The notes beneath the pieces are model-generated. The model was not told where the DNA came from and did no database searches. It was given only the letters and a program-made list of their open reading frames with translations. Source: Blastomonas sp. AAP53 (GTDB lineage Bacteria > Pseudomonadota > Alphaproteobacteria > Sphingomonadales > Sphingomonadaceae). From it: DNA of 64,000 nucleotides. Below, one piece after another: positions 55,894 to 64,000 of this stretch. The stretch covers positions 310,001 to 374,000 of the forward strand of contig NZ_ANFZ01000006.1 in the NCBI RefSeq assembly GCF_000331245.1. The letters are read 5' to 3'. How positions within the stretch are numbered: the stretch's first letter is position 1; every line of letters begins with the position of its first letter. A program made the translations under genes and the position numbers.

Positions 55894-58335
55894 TCAGTAT
55901 CTGAGCCGTGCCTCGATGCCGATCACCCGGGGGGTCAACACCGAACGCCCGTAATAGCGCGAGATCACGCCACCATTGACGAAGCCGAAGCGGCTGCGAT
56001 CGTTGCTGATTCCGGTCACGGCATATTCGTTGGTCAGGTTGTTGGCGAACAGCGACACCTCGTAGGAATCGCCCATCTGGTAGGTGATGGCGGCGCGGTG
56101 CGTCAGATAATCGGGCAATGTCTCACCGAAGCCCCGATTGCCGACCCGGCTCAGGATGTTGCCGGTATAGGTCGCGGTCCAGTTGAGTTTCAGCTCGCTG
56201 TTGTCGCCCACCGGAACCACGTAATCTGCGGCAATCGACCCGCTGTGCTTGGCCGATCCGGGCAGACGGTCGCCATCGAATACGCCGACACGAACAAACT
56301 TGGGTCGGACACTGGCAACCTGGCTGTTGCGGATCTGCAGCAGGTTGGGAACATCCGCTGTCAGCTGCGCGTCGAGATAGGAATAGTTCCCCCGCAGCGA
56401 GAATTCCGGCGTGATCTGCGCTCTGAAGGAGACATCGAACCCTCGGTTACGCGCGGCACCGCCGTTGGTCAGGATACCGATCCCGCCGAATTCCGTTGCA
56501 CTTGCCAGCTGAATTCCATCCCAGTTGACCTGGAATACCGACAGATTCATCGAAAGCCTTTTGTCGAACATGCTTGCACGGACGCCCAGCTCGATGTTCT
56601 CGGTCTCGTCCGGAGAATAGAACAATTCATTTGGCAGCGCGCAAATGTTCTGCTGGTTCAGGTTGAGCGGAAGCACGCATGGTGCCGCCCCGGTATTTGC
56701 GCCACCCAGCCTGTATCCGGTGCTGTAGGTCAAATAGACCAGTGCATCGTCACCAAATTTGTAAGAGGTGTTTGCCTTGTAGACAACGCCGGACGCGCTT
56801 GCCTGACCCTGGCTGGAAGGAATATCGTCATCGCTGGCGACCGGCCCGTCAAAATAGGGCAGGGTCGATCCGCCAAAACGTTCGAGATCATAGCCGTAAT
56901 ACCGCAAACCGCCGGTAATCTGCCATTCTGGCGTAACGTTATAGGTGAGCTCACCAAATATCGCACGTTCCTTGATGCTGTTGCGTCCAAACGAGGCATA
57001 TTCGTTGTCGTCGGCATTGGGGATGACGCCGAACGCTGTGCCAGTGGGCGAGGCACCAAAGCCCGGAATGAACTCGCGATAGCTGTTACGAGAATTCGAG
57101 TTATTGTAAAATGCGCCGAGAACCCAATTGAACGGCCCGCCATGCGTCGACAACAGTCGAATTTCCTGGTTGAATTGCTTGGTGCTGGCATTGGAACGGG
57201 TGAATCCGGTGAACGCCGGGAAGCCCTCATAGCCATAGTCAAGGTCGAGCAACAGGTCGGTGACGTCGACCGAGCCCTGGTTGGTCGTCTTGGTGTAGGC
57301 CGTGGAAGAGATCAGCTGTGCAAAATCGCCGATCTGCGCTTCGACTTCAAGGCTGAGCAGATGGGCTCGCCGGGTCGCAGGCTCCAGTACACGCCACGGG
57401 CCTTCATAGCGGCCTTCGCCGAGAACACCGCCACCATTAGCCTGACGGCCCTCGGTCTTCACCTCCTGGAATGCATAGGTCAGGTAGACCTTTGTCGTGT
57501 CCAGCGTCAGACCCAGCTGGTTACGGGTTGTGAAGGTCTTGCCATAGTTCACGTCCCGCTCACGTTTCAAATTGGCGGCCTGCTGCGCTGGCGTACCCAA
57601 CGGATTGGAGGCGGGCCCAGGTTGCGGCAAGGACACGCCGATTGTCTGCACCGTGAACGGATAATCGATGAAGCCCGGATCGTAGAAATAGCCGGTGGCG
57701 CTGCGGAATGCCAGCAGATCGCTGATGATCGGCAGATTGATGACCCCGTCGAACACATGGCCAATGTCTTTGCTCTGCTCCATCGCAAACGCGCGGGCGT
57801 GGACACTGCCCGATATCTTTGTGGGGTCCGGGCGTTCCGGAATATAGCGGATGGCTCCCGCCAGTGTGCCAAGGCCATAGAGCGTTCCTTGAGGTCCAAG
57901 CAGGACCTCGACGCGCGCCATGTCGATCAGCTTGAAATCGAAATAGAGCGGCACTTCGCCCAGATAAATTCCGATAGCGCTATTGCCGTTGTCCGCAAAG
58001 GTGCTGCTGTCGTCGGCGGAGAGACCGCGCATCACGATGGTGCCGGCGCCGCGTGGCCCGGTGTCCGTGATCGTGATGCCCGGCGTAAAGGCCCCCAGGT
58101 CGCGAATATCGTTCAGGCGCTGATCCGCCAGTTCGTCGGCACCGATGGCCGAGACGTTCATCGGCACGTCTTGCAGCGATAGTGCACGACGCGTGGCGGT
58201 CACCACGATGACATTGCCGGGCTCGCCGTCAGTCTCGGCTTCCTGCGCGGACTCCTGCGCGAAGGCCGGTGCAGCGCTTACGCCCATCAGCATGGTTGCG
58301 CCCATCAGCGCTGTACGGAACATTGTATTTGTCAT
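55894..58335 (-). CDS. TonB-dependent receptor
   Basis: The 813-residue outer-membrane receptor has a signal peptide (MLMGVSAAPAFA) and a TonB box region NVIVVTATRR. The plug contains LQDVPMNVSAIGADELADQR and RVEVLLGPQGTLYGLGTLAGAI, and the barrel ends GIEARLRY. This is the type expanded in sphingomonads for uptake of large or scarce substrates, not a clear siderophore subtype. The ligand is unknown; the adjacent MBL-fold hydrolase suggests an ester or lactone compound. The ATG at 58335 has AGGGGGG upstream, rather than a start at 58377. Confidence 0.9.
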   Translation of the reverse strand: MTNTMFRTALMGATMLMGVSAAPAFAQESAQEAETDGEPGNVIVVTATRRALSLQDVPMNVSAIGADELADQRLNDIRDLGAFTPGITITDTGPRGAGTIVMRGLSADDSSTFADNGNSAIGIYLGEVPLYFDFKLIDMARVEVLLGPQGTLYGLGTLAGAIRYIPERPDPTKISGSVHARAFAMEQSKDIGHVFDGVINLPIISDLLAFRSATGYFYDPGFIDYPFTVQTIGVSLPQPGPASNPLGTPAQQAANLKRERDVNYGKTFTTRNQLGLTLDTTKVYLTYAFQEVKTEGRQANGGGVLGEGRYEGPWRVLEPATRRAHLLSLEVEAQIGDFAQLISSTAYTKTTNQGSVDVTDLLLDLDYGYEGFPAFTGFTRSNASTKQFNQEIRLLSTHGGPFNWVLGAFYNNSNSRNSYREFIPGFGASPTGTAFGVIPNADDNEYASFGRNSIKERAIFGELTYNVTPEWQITGGLRYYGYDLERFGGSTLPYFDGPVASDDDIPSSQGQASASGVVYKANTSYKFGDDALVYLTYSTGYRLGGANTGAAPCVLPLNLNQQNICALPNELFYSPDETENIELGVRASMFDKRLSMNLSVFQVNWDGIQLASATEFGGIGILTNGGAARNRGFDVSFRAQITPEFSLRGNYSYLDAQLTADVPNLLQIRNSQVASVRPKFVRVGVFDGDRLPGSAKHSGSIAADYVVPVGDNSELKLNWTATYTGNILSRVGNRGFGETLPDYLTHRAAITYQMGDSYEVSLFANNLTNEYAVTGISNDRSRFGFVNGGVISRYYGRSVLTPRVIGIEARLRY

Positions 58336-58682
58336 GGATCGACCCCCCTTCAAAGGTGAGCCTTTCACAAATGACACCCCACTCCCTTGGCGCTCTGGCT
58401 AGGCCGGCACCTTGCATGCCGTTTTCCGGCATGATTGTTTTGTCGTCTGCATCCCGCGCCCCTGAGCGCGCAGGCGGTATCCGTCGCATGGAGCCGATGG
58501 GGCCCATGCGCTGTCTTCGATCGCCAGCTTTGGTCTGCAGATCCGGGTGGCTGCACCGTGTGACCGGTGGAAGCGGCGAACCGCAACCCCTGTGTCAGCA
58601 TCCGTACAAGCTGCCCTTCGATCCACGAAACCTCACTGCACGATTAGTGGTTTTCCTGATTTCGCCGTGTCTGCGGCGATGT

Positions 58683-58710
58683 CCATTACGGTATGGATAT
58701 TACGTAATGG
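58683..58710. promoter_or_regulatory. Inverted repeat with ATTAC/GTAAT half-sites
   Basis: CCATTACG (58683-58690) and CGTAATGG (58703-58710) form 8-bp arms. The right arm also lies in a perfect palindrome ATTACGTAAT (58699-58708), and a further GTAAT follows at 58718-58722. The same pentamers recur in the palindrome at 59020-59045. Confidence 0.5.
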
Positions 58711-59019
58711 GTCAAGCGTAATATTTGTGCACCTGCTCAGTGTGATTCGAAATCATGTTGCGGTGCACAAGAATGCCGCTTTTCTGCTGGTTTTGGCCGC
58801 AACCCCTGTGGCCATGGACGAACGGCTGAAAGCGCATCCGGGCAGGTCAGGGAAGGCCGAGATGCGAATCGCCCCGGTGGAGCCTGCACAAGCGCGATTC
58901 GCGCCGACCATTTCAAAACGCTTGGTTTTCCGAAGATATGCAGGGTGATGGGGGGCTTGATACGGCCATGGCGGGCAGATGCAGGCTTGAAAGGAGCCGA
59001 CCCGCGCTCGACGGCAGGT

Positions 59020-59045
59020 TATTACCAAATTTATCGTTGGTAATA
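59020..59045. promoter_or_regulatory. Palindrome TATTACCAA-N8-TTGGTAATA upstream of the ABC transporter
   Basis: Nine-base perfect arms are separated by 8 nt, ending 60 bp before the start of the substrate-binding protein gene. The size and spacing suit a dimeric or tetrameric repressor such as a ribbon-helix-helix protein. The NikR-like regulator encoded in the same operon is the first candidate. Confidence 0.55.
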
Positions 59046-59105: not shown

Positions 59106-60188
59106 ATGATGAGGCTGCTGGGGAAAGTCGGGACCATGATCGCGATGGCGGGGGCGCTGATGCTGGCAGCCTGTTCGCAATCGCCAGATCCTGCAGCCAA
59201 GCCGCGCACCGAGTTCAACATCGGCTGGTCGATCTATGCCGGATGGATGCCCTGGCCCTATGCGCAGCAAGCGGGCATCGTGAAGAAATGGGCCGACAAA
59301 TACGGCATCACCATCAACGTCGTGCAGGTCAACGACTATGTGGAGTCGGTCAACCAGTACACCGCGGGCAAGTTCGATGGCGTCACCGTCACCAACATGG
59401 ACGCGCTGACCATTCCCGCTGCCGGCGGCAAGGATACCACCGCAATCATCGTGGGCGACTATTCCAACGGCAATGACGGCGTTCTGCTCAAGGGGGCCAA
59501 TTCGCTCGCCGCGATCAAGGGTCGCCAGGTCTATCTGGTCGAGCTCTCGGTCTCGCATTACCTGCTGACGCGCGGCCTGGAAAAGGCTGGCCTCAAATCG
59601 ACCGACGTCAAGACGATCAACACGTCCGATGCCGATATCGTCGCGGCCTTCAGCGCGGCCGACGTCAACGCTGCCGTCGCCTGGAACCCGCAATTGTCAG
59701 TAATGAAGGGCGGGGCAGGGGTGACCCAGGTGTTCAGCTCGGCCGATATTCCGGGTGAGATCCTCGACCTGATGGTGGTCGATACCGCCACGCTCAAGGC
59801 CAACCCCAATCTGGGCAAGGCGCTGGCTGGCATCTGGTACGAAACCGTTGCGCTGATGCAGCGTGACGATGCCGAAGGCAAGGCAGCGCGCGCCGCGATG
59901 GCCAAGCTCTCCGGCGCAACGCCAGCCATGTTCGACAGCCAGCTGGCAACGACGTTCCTCTACGCCGACCCCAAGGCTGCGGTTGCTGCGACAACCTCAC
60001 CCAATCTGGTGGCGACGATGACCGCAGTGCGCGACTTCAGCTTCTCCAAGGGCCTGTTCCAGGGCGCAAGCAGCGCCGACGCGGTGGGCATCGCCTTTCC
60101 CGGCGGAAAGGTCCTGGGCGATCCAGGCCGGGTGACGCTGCGCTTCGACGATGCCTTCATGAAGCTCGCTGCCGACGGCAAGCTTTGA
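59106..60188 (+). CDS. ABC transporter substrate-binding lipoprotein (NMT1/taurine-like)
   Basis: The 360-residue protein has a lipoprotein signal (ALMLAACS, Cys 23) and a type II periplasmic-binding fold. It contains NIGWSIYAGWMPWPYAQQAGI, VTVTNMDALTIPAAGGKD, then LVELSVSHYLLTRGL and VAAFSAADVNAAVAWNPQ. It resembles the binding proteins of nitrate/taurine/urea-carboxylase-linked ABC systems. As first gene of the carboxylase operon it probably captures guanidine, urea or a related amidine; which one is not shown by sequence. Confidence 0.9.
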   Translation: MMRLLGKVGTMIAMAGALMLAACSQSPDPAAKPRTEFNIGWSIYAGWMPWPYAQQAGIVKKWADKYGITINVVQVNDYVESVNQYTAGKFDGVTVTNMDALTIPAAGGKDTTAIIVGDYSNGNDGVLLKGANSLAAIKGRQVYLVELSVSHYLLTRGLEKAGLKSTDVKTINTSDADIVAAFSAADVNAAVAWNPQLSVMKGGAGVTQVFSSADIPGEILDLMVVDTATLKANPNLGKALAGIWYETVALMQRDDAEGKAARAAMAKLSGATPAMFDSQLATTFLYADPKAAVAATTSPNLVATMTAVRDFSFSKGLFQGASSADAVGIAFPGGKVLGDPGRVTLRFDDAFMKLAADGKL

Positions 60189-60226
60189 TCGCGCCGGGCG
60201 GCAACGGACCAGGGAAGGAAGCACGC

Positions 60227-61042
60227 ATGCGCTGGGTCAACCGCCATCTGCGCCGCAGCGAACGCATCGCGCTGGGTGCCCTGCCGATCGCCTTGCTGCT
60301 GATCGTCTACATCGTGATGGCCGCACAGCGCCACGCCGACAACCCGATGGACAAGATACTGCCGCTGCCAGGCGCCATGGCGCAGGCGATGTCGCTGCTG
60401 ATCTTCCAGACCGACCAACTGACAGGCCAGATCATCTTCTGGGTGGACACGCTGGCCAGCCTGCAGCGGCTGGCTTTGGGGTTGGGGATTGCGACCGTGA
60501 TCTCGCTGGTCGTCAGCCTGCTTCTGGGCGTGCTGCCCCCGGTACGCGCGACCTTCGGCCCGCTGGTGACCGGCATCGCTGTCATCCCGCCGATCGCGCT
60601 GCTGCCGATCCTGTTCATTGCCTTGGGCCTGGGTGAGACCGCCAAGGTGGCGCTGATCGCCATCGGGGTCGCCCCGGTGATGATCCGCGACATAACCGCG
60701 CATATTGCCGCGCTGCCCGCCGAGCAGATCGTCAAGGCGCAGACCTTGGGTGCAAGCTCGTGGCAGATCATGATCCGCGTTGCGCTGCCGCAGGCGATGC
60801 CGCGCCTGATCCACGCGGTGCGGCTCGCTTTGGGTCCGGCCTGGGTGTTCCTGATCTCGGCCGAAGCGATCGCCGCCGATACCGGGCTGGGCTACCGCAT
60901 CTTCCTGGTGCGCCGCTATCTCGCGATGGACGTCATCATTCCCTATGTCGCGTGGATCGCGTTCCTTGCGATCGTGATGGATGCGACGCTTGCCTATGCC
61001 AACCGCAAGGCCTTCCCCTGGGCACAGGGGGCAAGCCATTGA
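60227..61042 (+). CDS. ABC transporter permease of the carboxylase operon
   Basis: The 271-residue permease has six predicted helices and the SsuC/TauC/NrtB-type coupling loop with the EAA motif (IVKAQTLGASSWQIMIRVALPQAMP). The region IPPIALLPILFIALGLGE is also typical. The ATG at 60227 follows GGGAAGGAA. A TTG at 60185 would overlap the previous gene but lacks a good site. It partners the lipoprotein upstream and the ATPase that begins at its stop codon. Confidence 0.92.
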   Translation: MRWVNRHLRRSERIALGALPIALLLIVYIVMAAQRHADNPMDKILPLPGAMAQAMSLLIFQTDQLTGQIIFWVDTLASLQRLALGLGIATVISLVVSLLLGVLPPVRATFGPLVTGIAVIPPIALLPILFIALGLGETAKVALIAIGVAPVMIRDITAHIAALPAEQIVKAQTLGASSWQIMIRVALPQAMPRLIHAVRLALGPAWVFLISAEAIAADTGLGYRIFLVRRYLAMDVIIPYVAWIAFLAIVMDATLAYANRKAFPWAQGASH

Positions 61043-61044
61043 GC

Positions 61045-61845
61045 ATGCCCGCCAACCCCATCCTCAGCCTGCAGAATGTGTGGGTCGAATATGGCGACAA
61101 GATCGTGCTCGAGAAGGTCGATCTCGATATCCAGCCCGGCTCGTTCGTCTCGATCATCGGCCCCTCGGGTGCGGGCAAGAGCAGCCTGCTCCGCATCATC
61201 CTGGGGCAGGAGCGCCCGACGCGCGGACGTATCGAACTCGATGGCGCGCCGCTGTCGCCCGAATGCGGGCCCGATCGCGGCGTTGTCTTCCAGAAATACT
61301 CGGTGTTCCCGCACCTGACCGTGCTGGGCAACACGATGTTCGGGCTCGAGTGTGCGCAGGCGCCGCTCACCGCCCGGCTGTTCGGCTCGGCCCGCCGCGC
61401 AGCCCGGGCTGAGGCTATTGCGATGTTGCAGGCTGTCGGCCTGGGCGACACGCTCGACCAATATCCCGCGCAGCTGTCCGGCGGGATGCAGCAAAGGCTG
61501 GCGATCGCGCAGGCCTTGATCAAGCGGCCGCGCATCCTGCTGCTCGACGAACCCTTTGGCGCGCTCGATCCGGGCATCCGCGCGGACATGCACGCGCTGA
61601 TCAGGACGCTGTGGCGCGATTATGCGCTGACCATCGTGATGGTGACGCACGATCTGCGCGAGGCCTTCACGCTGGGCACGCGCGTGCTGGCGCTCGACAA
61701 GCGCCGGCACGATCCGCACGCGCCGCACCGCTTCGGTGCAACCGCCGTCTATGATCTGATACTCGACAAGAAGAGCGACCCGGAAGAGGCTGAGCCCAAA
61801 GCTATTCTTTCTGAAGAGATCACTCTCAGCCAGGAGAGCGCGTGA
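61045..61845 (+). CDS. ABC transporter ATP-binding protein of the carboxylase operon
   Basis: The 266-residue ATPase has Walker A GPSGAGKSS, a Q-loop in VVFQKYSVFPHL, signature LSGGMQQRLAIAQAL, Walker B ILLLDEPFGALD and H-loop MVTHDLREAF. This is the nitrate/sulfonate (SsuB/TauB) group. A C-terminal extension of about 35 residues (DLILDKKSDPEEAEPKAI) follows. The start may be ATG 61045 or TTG 61039; the TTG overlaps the permease stop and is better spaced from a GGGGG run. Confidence 0.93.
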   Translation: MPANPILSLQNVWVEYGDKIVLEKVDLDIQPGSFVSIIGPSGAGKSSLLRIILGQERPTRGRIELDGAPLSPECGPDRGVVFQKYSVFPHLTVLGNTMFGLECAQAPLTARLFGSARRAARAEAIAMLQAVGLGDTLDQYPAQLSGGMQQRLAIAQALIKRPRILLLDEPFGALDPGIRADMHALIRTLWRDYALTIVMVTHDLREAFTLGTRVLALDKRRHDPHAPHRFGATAVYDLILDKKSDPEEAEPKAILSEEITLSQESA

Positions 61846-61846
61846 C

Positions 61847-62323
61847 GTGACTACCGAACCGACCAGCGTAGCCAGGCTCTCGATGAGCCTTCCGGGCGAA
61901 CTGTTTCGCCAGCTCGATATCATGGTGGAAGAGCGCGGCCTGCCGTCGCGGTCGCAGCTGATCGCCGAGCTGATCCGCCATGCGCTCGCCGCGCACGAGG
62001 CGCATACGCGGCCCGACGAGATGCTCGCGGGCACGATCACCATCGTCTATCGCGGCGACCGGGGCCGCGTGCGCCATCAGCTGGCGCAGACCCAGGCCGA
62101 GTATCTGAAAGAGGTCATCTCCTCGCAACACGTGTTTCTGGAGGATGACCAGTCGCTCGAGGTGCTGCTGGTGCAGGGCCCCGCCGTGCGCCTCAACGAT
62201 CTGTGCGATGCCCTGCGCCGGGTGCGCGGCGTCCACCAGCTGCAACTTGTCACCACCACCGCCCTGCTGCCGCCGCTCTACGAGCCGGGCGCGGGCGAGA
62301 CCTCCAAGGGAGCCGCCGCATGA
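61847..62323 (+). CDS. NikR-like ribbon-helix-helix/ACT regulator lacking the nickel site
   Basis: The 158-residue protein has an N-terminal ribbon-helix-helix (ARLSMSLPGELFRQLDIMVE, then RSQLIAELIRHAL) and a C-terminal ACT-like domain (TITIVYRGDRGRVRHQL ... SQHVFLEDDQSLEVLLVQG) as in NikR. Aligned without gaps to E. coli NikR, ligand H87 is kept (H95), but H76, H89 and C95 become A84, F97 and S103. Nickel sensing by the usual square-planar site is therefore unlikely. It starts at GTG 61847, 2 nt after the ATPase stop, with AGGAG upstream, and overlaps the next gene. It probably senses another ligand and controls this operon. Confidence 0.88.
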   Translation: MTTEPTSVARLSMSLPGELFRQLDIMVEERGLPSRSQLIAELIRHALAAHEAHTRPDEMLAGTITIVYRGDRGRVRHQLAQTQAEYLKEVISSQHVFLEDDQSLEVLLVQGPAVRLNDLCDALRRVRGVHQLQLVTTTALLPPLYEPGAGETSKGAAA

Positions 62324-63144
62324 CTGCCGTATTGAGCGATCCGCTCGCCGCCCGCGACCACGCCCGCGCCATGGCGGGCACCAAGGTCGAAGCCATGCCA
62401 GTGCTGCCACCGGTGGCGGATGATCTGCCCGCCGGTGTCTCCGCCGACGGTCTGGTGTGGGAAGAGACCATCGCGGCCGGAGGCTATGCCACCCGTCGGC
62501 TAGCGCGGGGCACGCGGCTGCGGCTGATCGACACCCAGGGAGATGCCTGCGCAGGCCTGCAACTGTTCAATGCCGAGATGCCGACCGAGCGGCTGAATGT
62601 CGCCGACACGGTCAAGGTGCAGTGGAACGCCTATCTGGGTGCGGGCAAGCTGCTGCTGTCCGACATGGGCCGCGTGCTGATGAGCATTCTCGAGGACGAT
62701 GCAGGCACGCACGATGCATTCTGCGGCACCTCGAACGCGGCCACTAACGCGGCCAAATATGGCAACGGGACCAACAGCGGGCCTTGTCCCAATGGTCGCG
62801 ACCGCTTTCTGCTGGGCGCGGGCAAGCATGGCCTCGGGCGGCGTGACGTGCACCCATGCATCAACCTGTTCAAGGGCGCGAAGATTGCCGCAGACGGTGC
62901 CATCGTTCCCGATATCGGCCCGTTCGCGCCAGGGCGCAGCGTCGTGCTGCGCGCGGAGATGGAGCTGATCGTGGTGATCGCCAACGTGCCGCACGTGCTC
63001 GATCGGCGCCCCGCCTACACGGTGTCGCCGCTGCGCGCGACGGCGTGGCGCGGGCCGGTGACGCCGCCGGGCGACCCCATCCGCAATGCGACGCCGGAGG
63101 GCCAGCGCGCCTTTCTGAACGTCGAAGACCATTTCCGCCGCTGA
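62320..63144 (+). CDS. DUF1989 protein, urea carboxylase-associated protein 2 (carboxyguanidine deiminase subunit)
   Basis: The 274-residue protein has a DUF1989 domain: ETIAAGGYATRRLARGTRLR, DTQGDACAGLQLFNA, then FCGTSNAATNAAKYG and the DVHPCINLFKGAKIA segment. In guanidine-degrading bacteria two DUF1989 proteins (CgdA and CgdB) together deiminate carboxyguanidine made by the carboxylase, giving allophanate. This longer member fits the protein called urea carboxylase-associated protein 2. It overlaps the regulator by ATGA. The pair argues for guanidine rather than plain urea as substrate, although this is inferred from context. Confidence 0.85.
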   Translation: MTAVLSDPLAARDHARAMAGTKVEAMPVLPPVADDLPAGVSADGLVWEETIAAGGYATRRLARGTRLRLIDTQGDACAGLQLFNAEMPTERLNVADTVKVQWNAYLGAGKLLLSDMGRVLMSILEDDAGTHDAFCGTSNAATNAAKYGNGTNSGPCPNGRDRFLLGAGKHGLGRRDVHPCINLFKGAKIAADGAIVPDIGPFAPGRSVVLRAEMELIVVIANVPHVLDRRPAYTVSPLRATAWRGPVTPPGDPIRNATPEGQRAFLNVEDHFRR

Positions 63145-63161: not shown

Positions 63162-63797
63162 ATGAGCGTCGATCCCTATCTCGCCGGGCTGAACGGCCCC
63201 ATCGTCCACGATGAAATCGTGGCAGCCCGTGCGCCCTGGCTGCACCATGTCGCTGCCGGGCAGACGTTGCGCATCGTCGATCTGGAGGGAAACCAGGCGG
63301 TCGATTTCCTGCTCTATGCCACCGCCAATGATGCCGAGCGCTACAGCGCGCAGGACACGGTCGCCGCGCAAGGCAACCTGTTCCTGCGCGAAGGGACCGT
63401 GCTGCGCTCCAACGAGGGCCGCGCGATGATGACCATCGCAGCGACTTCGGTCGATTATCACGACACTATTGGCGGTGCGTGCTCGTGTGAATCCAATACC
63501 TTGCGTTACGGACATCACACCAAATCCGAGCACGCCTGCGTCGAGAACTTCCTCGAGGCCAACCTGCTCGAGGGACGCGGCAAGCGCGACATCGTCTCGA
63601 ATATCAACTTCTTCATGAACGTGCCGGTCGAGCCCGATGGGTCGCTGGGCATTGTCGATGGCATTTCGGCGCCGGGCCTCACCGTCGATCTGCGCGCCGA
63701 GATGGATGTGACCGTGGTCGTCTCCAACTGCCCGCAGATCAACAACCCCTGCAACGGCTTCAACCCCACGCCCGTCCGAATGATCGTTGCCGCATGA
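63162..63797 (+). CDS. DUF1989 protein, urea carboxylase-associated protein 1 (carboxyguanidine deiminase subunit)
   Basis: The 211-residue protein is the shorter DUF1989 member: [20 protein letters not shown], then [12 protein letters not shown], a cysteine pair in [14 protein letters not shown], and [16 protein letters not shown] before the [11 protein letters not shown] segment. The cysteines and nearby histidines could form a metal site. With the upstream DUF1989 protein it should form the deiminase complex that acts after the carboxylase. AGGAG lies 8 nt before the ATG, and the stop overlaps the carboxylase start (ATGA). Confidence 0.87.
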
Positions 63798-64000
63798 GCT
63801 ATGACACCGTCCTGATTGCCAACCGCGGTGCCATCGCCACCCGGATCATCCGCACCTTGAGGCGCATGGGGCTGCGCTCGGTTGCGGTCTATTCGGAGGC
63901 CGACGAGGCATCGCTGCACGTTGCGATGGCTGACGAGGCCGTGTGCATCGGCGGTGCGCGCGCGACCGAGAGCTATCTCAACATCGCCGCGATCCTGGAG
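63794..64000 (+). CDS. Urea/guanidine carboxylase, N-terminal biotin carboxylase part (cut by window end)
   Basis: Only 69 codons are visible. They show the start of a biotin carboxylase domain: [37 protein letters not shown] and ADEAVCIGG. After the ABC transporter and both DUF1989 genes, the expected protein is the large multidomain urea carboxylase / guanidine carboxylase that uses biotin, ATP and bicarbonate. An allophanate hydrolase gene would normally follow. The visible part cannot tell urea from guanidine preference. Confidence 0.85.

Follow-up and report, generated by a model that had tools for sequence, protein, structure and literature searches.

A regulator encoded inside a guanidine operon of Blastomonas sp. 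AAP53 is, judging from its sequence, a NikR relative that has retained the DNA-binding and ACT-like sensor domains of that family and in which the nickel site has been dismantled; it belongs to a whole group of NikR relatives that lack the nickel site and share an operator of their own. We lean toward the reading that it is a NikR-derived, nickel-independent repressor that guanidine, or one of its close relatives, would release from its operators. All positions refer to the window, that is, the whole stretch of 64,000 nucleotides that was analyzed, unless another locus is named.

Domain architecture and the former nickel site

The regulator (158 residues, positions 61847–62323, forward strand, GTG start codon) carries both members of the NikR domain pair above their Pfam cut-offs: a ribbon-helix-helix (RHH) DNA-binding domain at residues 10–48 (61874–61990; RHH_1, 22.2 bits vs. 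a cut-off of 20.5), in which the R10-S12-S14 strand occupies the position of R3-T5-T7 in E. coli-type NikR, and an ACT-like NikR_C domain at residues 61–137 (62027–62257; 73.3 bits vs. 22). Five NCBIfam NikR models match it as well, all of them below cut-off (best 93.4 bits vs. 105). The original prediction had described an ungapped alignment to E. coli NikR through the ACT domain, and this is what we find, with residues 59–141 matching 51–133 of the E. coli-type protein at a constant offset of 8 and only the linker requiring a gap, of a single residue. The nearest solved structure is the NikR of Pyrococcus horikoshii (E 5e-24; 40% identity by Foldseek); the predicted fold has the NikR structure 2bj7 as its best whole-chain match, and the predicted C-terminal domain superimposes on NikR 3qsi with a TM score of 0.92 (by target length) at 1.5 Å, in a monomer model of modest confidence (mean pLDDT 63.7) from which the pocket cannot be read. 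The closest protein relatives are from Sphingomonas sp. 35-24ZXX (97%) and Blastomonas natatoria (94%).

In E. coli NikR the nickel ligands are H76, H87, H89, and C95 (PMC7055735). Aligned with the E. coli-type and P. horikoshii proteins, the regulator has A84 (codon 62096–62098), H95 (62129–62131), F97 (62135–62137), and S103 (62153–62155) in these columns, so that H95, at the place of H87, is the sole ligand retained and the high-affinity His/His/His/Cys site is absent. The loss of three ligands had been claimed from this one protein, and it extends to its relatives. Our scan of public genomes kept the best 80 of 179 matching loci, all Sphingomonadales by title and together holding 97 gene copies; most of these loci are closely related, and the counts drawn from them are accordingly not independent. 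Among the window and one copy per locus from these best 80 of 179, column 84 is never histidine (0/81; alanine in 62), and H95, F97, and S103 are each present in 81/81, so that the loss is no sequencing error; H50 is likewise invariant in all 81, as is much of the sensor domain over long runs of residues. The second copies found in 17 of the 80 loci have A or T, H, V or F, and S at the ligand columns (16 read by pattern and the seventeenth by eye), and the inner copy of these two-copy loci has valine rather than phenylalanine at column 97 in 12 of the 17. Three of the four ligands are thus gone in all 97 sphingomonad copies. When 20 further relatives are added to these 97, giving 117 aligned sequences (a few of which may be repeats, since identical or nearly identical genomes can occur in two collections, and two of which, L182 and L188, are from outside guanidine clusters), none has histidine at column 84 or cysteine at column 103, and Q83, H95, and E105 are retained in every one. 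A full nickel site in relatives from other such operons had been named as an observation that would count against the idea; it was seen in 0 of these 117. Beyond the 117, a homologue in an A. baumannii record (L232) reads by eye as Q, H, Q, I, with glutamine at the place of E105.

A maximum-likelihood tree built without the four ligand columns splits 24 members of the group from 48 other NikR rows with support of 96/96; the tree has 131 columns and is unrooted, so that the word “clade” presumes a root among the canonical rows. This is the separate group, without the His/His/His/Cys set, that the original prediction had suggested looking for. It comprises sphingomonad rows, G434 (same order, second family), G847 (same class, another family), Asticcacaulis, and Acinetobacter, and three further members that keep H89, with RHHT or YHHT at the ligand columns (L176, L182, L188). 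A main branch (support 100/99) unites the sphingomonad rows with G434, G847, and Asticcacaulis; Acinetobacter and the three RHHT/YHHT members form a distant branch whose support is weaker (95/55). The tree omits 17 sphingomonad or duplicate loci, eight near-duplicate canonical rows, L099, and the duplicate L096; it holds 15 of the 97 sphingomonad copies, from 12 of the 80 loci. L182 and L188, which have no carboxylase in their 12 kb, were placed in its “guanidine” group by sequence likeness. The complete HHHC set is present in 44 of the 48 other rows. Four NikR_C proteins outside guanidine loci (L148, L185, L186, L187), which fall in the “NikR” group of the tree and were excluded from the column comparison, have the ligand sets HTVS, LSPA, NLCR, and LSPS; ligand loss alone is therefore not unique to the group.

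The operon and its operator

The regulator is the fourth gene of a forward-strand run that begins with an ABC transporter: substrate-binding protein (59106–60188, TIGR03427), permease (60185–61042), and ATPase (61045–61845), the latter two identified by Pfam. It is followed by two DUF1989 genes, UAAP1 (62320–63144, TIGR03425) and UAAP2 (63162–63797, TIGR03424), and by a urea/guanidine carboxylase of 1196 residues (TIGR02712) that starts at 63794 and runs past position 64000, the end of the window (L002:5795–9385), with an allophanate hydrolase (L002:9382–11151, TIGR02713) after it. The Pfam and NCBIfam matches agree with the carboxylase operon originally described. UAAP1 and UAAP2 we take to be the subunits of carboxyguanidine deiminase, and because both are present we regard this as a guanidine rather than a urea operon. 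A reference title in PMC9800807 is in line with that assignment of the two subunits.

The association between regulator and pathway is close. UAAP1 lies beside the regulator in 80/80 of the loci kept (the best 80 of 179) and the carboxylase in 79/80, the contig ending too early in the remaining one (L072). The regulator sits inside the operon in 63 of these loci; in the other 17 it stands first and a second copy lies inside, and in 16 of these 17 two-paralogue loci (e.g., L036, L058, L081) an operator within one mismatch is found just before the inner copy. The regulator gene occurs in 13 of 196 genomes sampled from this order, and UAAP1 scores above cut-off in the same 13; UAAP1-like matches occur in 53 of the 196, 40 of them below cut-off only. 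Outside the order, a plasmid of Asticcacaulis excentricus carries the regulator with UAAP1, UAAP2, uca, atzF, and a divergent transporter, and a plasmid of Acinetobacter sp. NCu2D-2 carries the pathway together with an SMR transporter, a 2-oxoglutarate oxygenase, and the regulator. We discounted the SMR gene as evidence for guanidinium, the nearest of the solved SMR proteins being EmrE.

The palindrome at 59020–59045 named in the original prediction is real: it is an exact copy of a conserved inverted repeat of 26 bp, TATTAC-N14-GTAATA, that we call the operator. This first predicted site lies upstream of the transporter genes, about 84 bp before the aligned start of the substrate-binding protein gene in most relatives, and a second (58698–58723) lies about 320–360 bp upstream of the likely start of a divergent TonB-dependent receptor gene (55894–58377, reverse strand; TonB_dep_Rec_b-barrel 109 bits, Plug 57.3 bits); these two are the only perfect copies in the genome. 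The receptor is a probable member of the regulon, and the fetched stretches of 53 of the 80 loci (best 80 of 179) include a homologue. A DUF6923 beta-propeller protein is encoded downstream of the allophanate hydrolase (L002:11177–12112), with homologues in 20 of the 80 loci as fetched (best 80 of 179); in one genome (G559) two operators (L147:14694 and 14777) lie directly upstream of such a homologue, and the protein probably belongs to the regulon as well.

The 80 loci (best 80 of 179) hold 133 perfect copies of the operator, and the same half-sites at 17 other spacings between 6 and 23 give no copy at all. A perfect operator is present in 77 of the 80, the other three being contigs that end before the promoter, and hence in 77/77 of the sphingomonad loci that include it. 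These loci are the ones that defined the motif, which makes tests on other material important. Across the 196 genomes of the order, a perfect site occurs in 12 of the 13 with the regulator gene vs. 15 of the 183 without it (Fisher p 4e-11, uncorrected for relatedness), and the 22 perfect sites of those 12 genomes are all on the contig of the regulator and within 9 kb. In the thirteenth genome, G434, the two regulator copies are directly preceded by TGTTAC-N14-GTAACA. Nine of nine distant loci carry the operator with up to two mismatches. Among distant members it is perfect in L184, L192, L188, and one of two sites in L193, has one mismatch in L176, reads TATGAC-N14-GTCATA in L182, and occurs at three sites with zero or one mismatch in L232. 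By comparison, no copy within one mismatch is found in 39 canonical NikR loci of about 3.2 kb each. The operator follows the regulator gene through Sphingomonadales, Asticcacaulis, Acinetobacter, and creatininase clusters, whatever the neighboring genes.

Read as TATTA-N16-TAATA, the element has its half-sites spaced exactly as in GTATGA-N16-TCATAC, the operator of E. coli NikR (PMC7055735), and the variant in G434 is identical to the consensus for delta-proteobacterial NikR, GTGTTAC-N13/14-GTAACAC (PMC545781). On the DNA-binding side the system thus resembles NikR, in contrast to the genes it would regulate, and control of the operon by the regulator through the 59020–59045 palindrome is well supported at the level of sequence. 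Two earlier attempts were set aside: our first guess at the motif, TTACC-N12-GGTAA, was too narrow and fits less well, and a search of the Blastomonas genome with that early pattern at three mismatches, which returned mostly background (21 per strand vs. 45 for a control), was not used. Even the final motif at two mismatches gives 10 sites per strand in this genome vs. 38 for the control pattern, and therefore only perfect or near-perfect sites carry weight. We also dropped the idea that TTGAC, found inside many sphingomonad sites, is a -35 box, as we could assign no -10 box at a suitable distance.

The distant-branch operator has a further companion. A sigma-54-like -24/-12 motif directed toward the site starts 20–27 bp upstream of 6 of 8 sites (in the L193, L232, L188, and L182 loci), vs. 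168 of 20000 positions drawn at random from these loci, and it is found at only 1 of the 133 sphingomonad sites. This suggests that nitrogen control and specific repression may meet at one promoter in the distant branch.

Riboswitches, the probable ligand, and other readings

No guanidine riboswitch is matched by Rfam anywhere in the window, and we compared guanidine loci with and without the regulator on this point. A sample of the phylum contained UAAP1 above cut-off in 42 of 398 genomes, and 30 of the 35 such genomes that lack a neighboring NikR-like gene, together with G266 from a class sample, supplied 31 loci (G608, G623, G686, G693, and G881 were left out). A guanidine-I riboswitch is present in 30 of these 31, with guanidine-II in addition in six; L264 has none. 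No operator lies at the operon in any of the 31, a stray perfect copy at L290:717 being about 5 kb from the operon there. The main-branch guanidine loci that carry the regulator are the reverse: 0 of 18 (the window and L003, L008, L017, L026, L032, L036, L045, L046, L047, L058, L059, L078, L081, L145, L146, L184, and L192) has a guanidine riboswitch, vs. 30/31 without the regulator (Fisher p 2e-12, uncorrected for relatedness and with 16 of the 18 from one order). In the main branch, then, the regulator takes the place that a guanidine riboswitch occupies in other proteobacteria, and we limit this statement to that branch.

In the distant branch riboswitch and regulator occur together in 3/3 guanidine clusters: guanidine-II precedes UAAP1 in L176, and guanidine-I precedes it in both Acinetobacter clusters (L294 and L232), which brings the overall figures to 3 of 21 loci with the regulator vs. 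30 of 31 without. One Acinetobacter locus, L193, had looked free of a riboswitch and was rejected as such, since it ends inside UAAP1 and the missing leader, seen in L294, has guanidine-I. One operator of the A. baumannii record is about 35 bp upstream of its guanidine-I riboswitch; there, L232:2852–3008 holds an operator, a sigma-54-like motif, and guanidine-I in succession before UAAP1, two layers of control in one leader. Because the distant-branch guanidine clusters carry riboswitches, the regulator is no substitute for one there and its ligand may be another; with both controls in place, guanidine could be read twice or the regulator could follow a separate cue.

The absence of the riboswitch from the main branch points to guanidine as the ligand. 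The original prediction had proposed a re-tooled NikR sensing guanidine, urea, or a nitrogen signal. Its first half stands, with the nickel site gone and a separate group found; on the second we would place guanidine ahead of urea because of the pathway genes and the missing main-branch riboswitch, though the ligand is inferred and may differ between branches. On the favored reading of a guanidine-released repressor, a tetramer would bridge both half-sites in the manner of NikR and keep the operon and the divergent TonB-dependent receptor gene off. Guanidine or a close relative, on entering the cell, would bind in or near the former nickel site, where H95 and its conserved neighbors Q83 and E105 are now accompanied by F97, S103, and a residue other than histidine at 84; the repressor would then be released and the genes for uptake, carboxylation, deimination, and allophanate hydrolysis would be expressed. 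The logic would be opposite to that of nickel and NikR, with the ligand inducing rather than co-repressing, as might be expected because the operon serves uptake and breakdown. The regulator would act in place of a riboswitch in the main branch and beside one in the distant branch.

More tentatively, this may be the first protein receptor to control transcription in response to guanidine: a square-planar nickel site would have become a pocket for a planar organic cation, binding would mean release, and the protein would have replaced the riboswitch in one large branch and, in the sister branch, would work beside a riboswitch or answer to another nitrogen compound. If true, it would be an example of a metal site turned into a small-molecule site and a natural case of a protein standing where relatives have a riboswitch, and it could possibly be used as a guanidine biosensor.

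The same repressor and operators could instead serve a ligand other than guanidine or a close guanidino relative. Candidates are a small nitrogen compound, creatinine-like or of another kind, an intermediate of the pathway, and an amino acid held in the ACT-like domain, such as glutamine reporting nitrogen status. Amino acids are common ligands of ACT domains, and the pairing of regulator and guanidine riboswitch in all three distant-branch guanidine clusters suggests a second, different signal. The regulators of L176, L182, and L188 adjoin a creatininase-family gene (Pfam 225.5, 224.5, and 230.9 bits, respectively) and a type III glutamine synthetase gene (636–651 bits; cut-off 469.6); L176 and L188 also have the ABC transporter. 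The genome of L188 (G884) has no UAAP1 match, and that of L182 (G893) keeps its guanidine operon elsewhere (L283), under guanidine-I and -II riboswitches and lacking the operator. In these three loci the regulator must respond to a compound that fits the creatininase and glutamine synthetase genes, whether or not this is guanidine; the genes themselves suggest a pathway for a small nitrogen compound. The sphingomonad gene, however, tracks UAAP1 exactly, and the riboswitch count of 0/18 vs. 30/31 in the main branch also speaks against another ligand; we hold this reading to be rather unlikely, though a serious one.

We give considerably less credence to the idea that the protein still senses a metal, bound through H95 together with H50 or other residues, and couples guanidine use to metal supply. 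Both histidines are invariant in 81/81 sequences and a TonB-dependent receptor gene has the same operator, and H. pylori NikR has the nickel uptake genes fecA3 and frpB4 among its targets (PMC7055735). Against this, three of four ligands are gone in every sphingomonad copy. The operon has no nickel enzyme gene, as had been claimed, and the cited source states that urea carboxylase is biotin-dependent (PMC13296017); where NikR is expected beside nickel genes, the constant neighbor here is UAAP1, and the genome itself gives no match to urease alpha (PF00449) or NiFe hydrogenase (PF00374). Among the 13 genomes with the regulator one has a NiFe hydrogenase match (G526) and four have urease matches (21.6–34.5 bits, two over cut-off, covering at most 50 of 121 positions), which we read as other amidohydrolases, being short and weak. 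A nickel role for the regulator is unlikely.

It is very improbable, in our judgment, that small-molecule sensing has been lost altogether and the protein is a constant brake or an autoregulator, induction by nitrogen status passing through another regulator. Nitrogen status probably matters in the distant branch, where 6 of 8 operators adjoin a sigma-54-like promoter, and the two regulator copies in 17 of 80 loci would suit such a role; but the long invariant stretches of sensor domain in 81 sequences need a purpose, and the sigma-54-like motif is all but confined to the distant branch (1/133 sphingomonad sites). That the palindrome is bound by a regulator encoded elsewhere, the NikR-like protein acting at other sites, is hardly credible, since the repeat tracks the NikR-like gene across taxa and contexts, has the geometry of a NikR operator, and is absent both from all 39 canonical NikR loci (within one mismatch) and from the operons of all 31 guanidine loci without the regulator gene.

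Relation to known systems

In the open-license literature that our search covered, we recognized no description of a protein, NikR-like or otherwise, that regulates guanidine genes, and a 2019 review describes NikR as the sole metal-regulated RHH protein (PMC7055735). The regulator resembles the NikR of E. coli, H. pylori, and P. horikoshii in its RHH domain, its ACT-like C-terminal domain, and the half-site spacing of the E. coli operator; it differs in having A/H/F/S for H/H/H/C, in falling below the NCBIfam cut-offs, in the absence of nickel genes from its operon, and, we infer, in an inverted ligand logic. Several of its relatives are annotated as “CopG family ribbon-helix-helix protein,” and the RHH domain is indeed common to both, but the regulator adds a sensor domain of the NikR type and is no bare RHH protein. 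The operons under guanidine-I and -II riboswitches encode the same ABC transporter, UAAP1 and UAAP2, carboxylase, and allophanate hydrolase; the main branch has a regulator gene and DNA operators instead of the riboswitch, whereas the distant branch has both.
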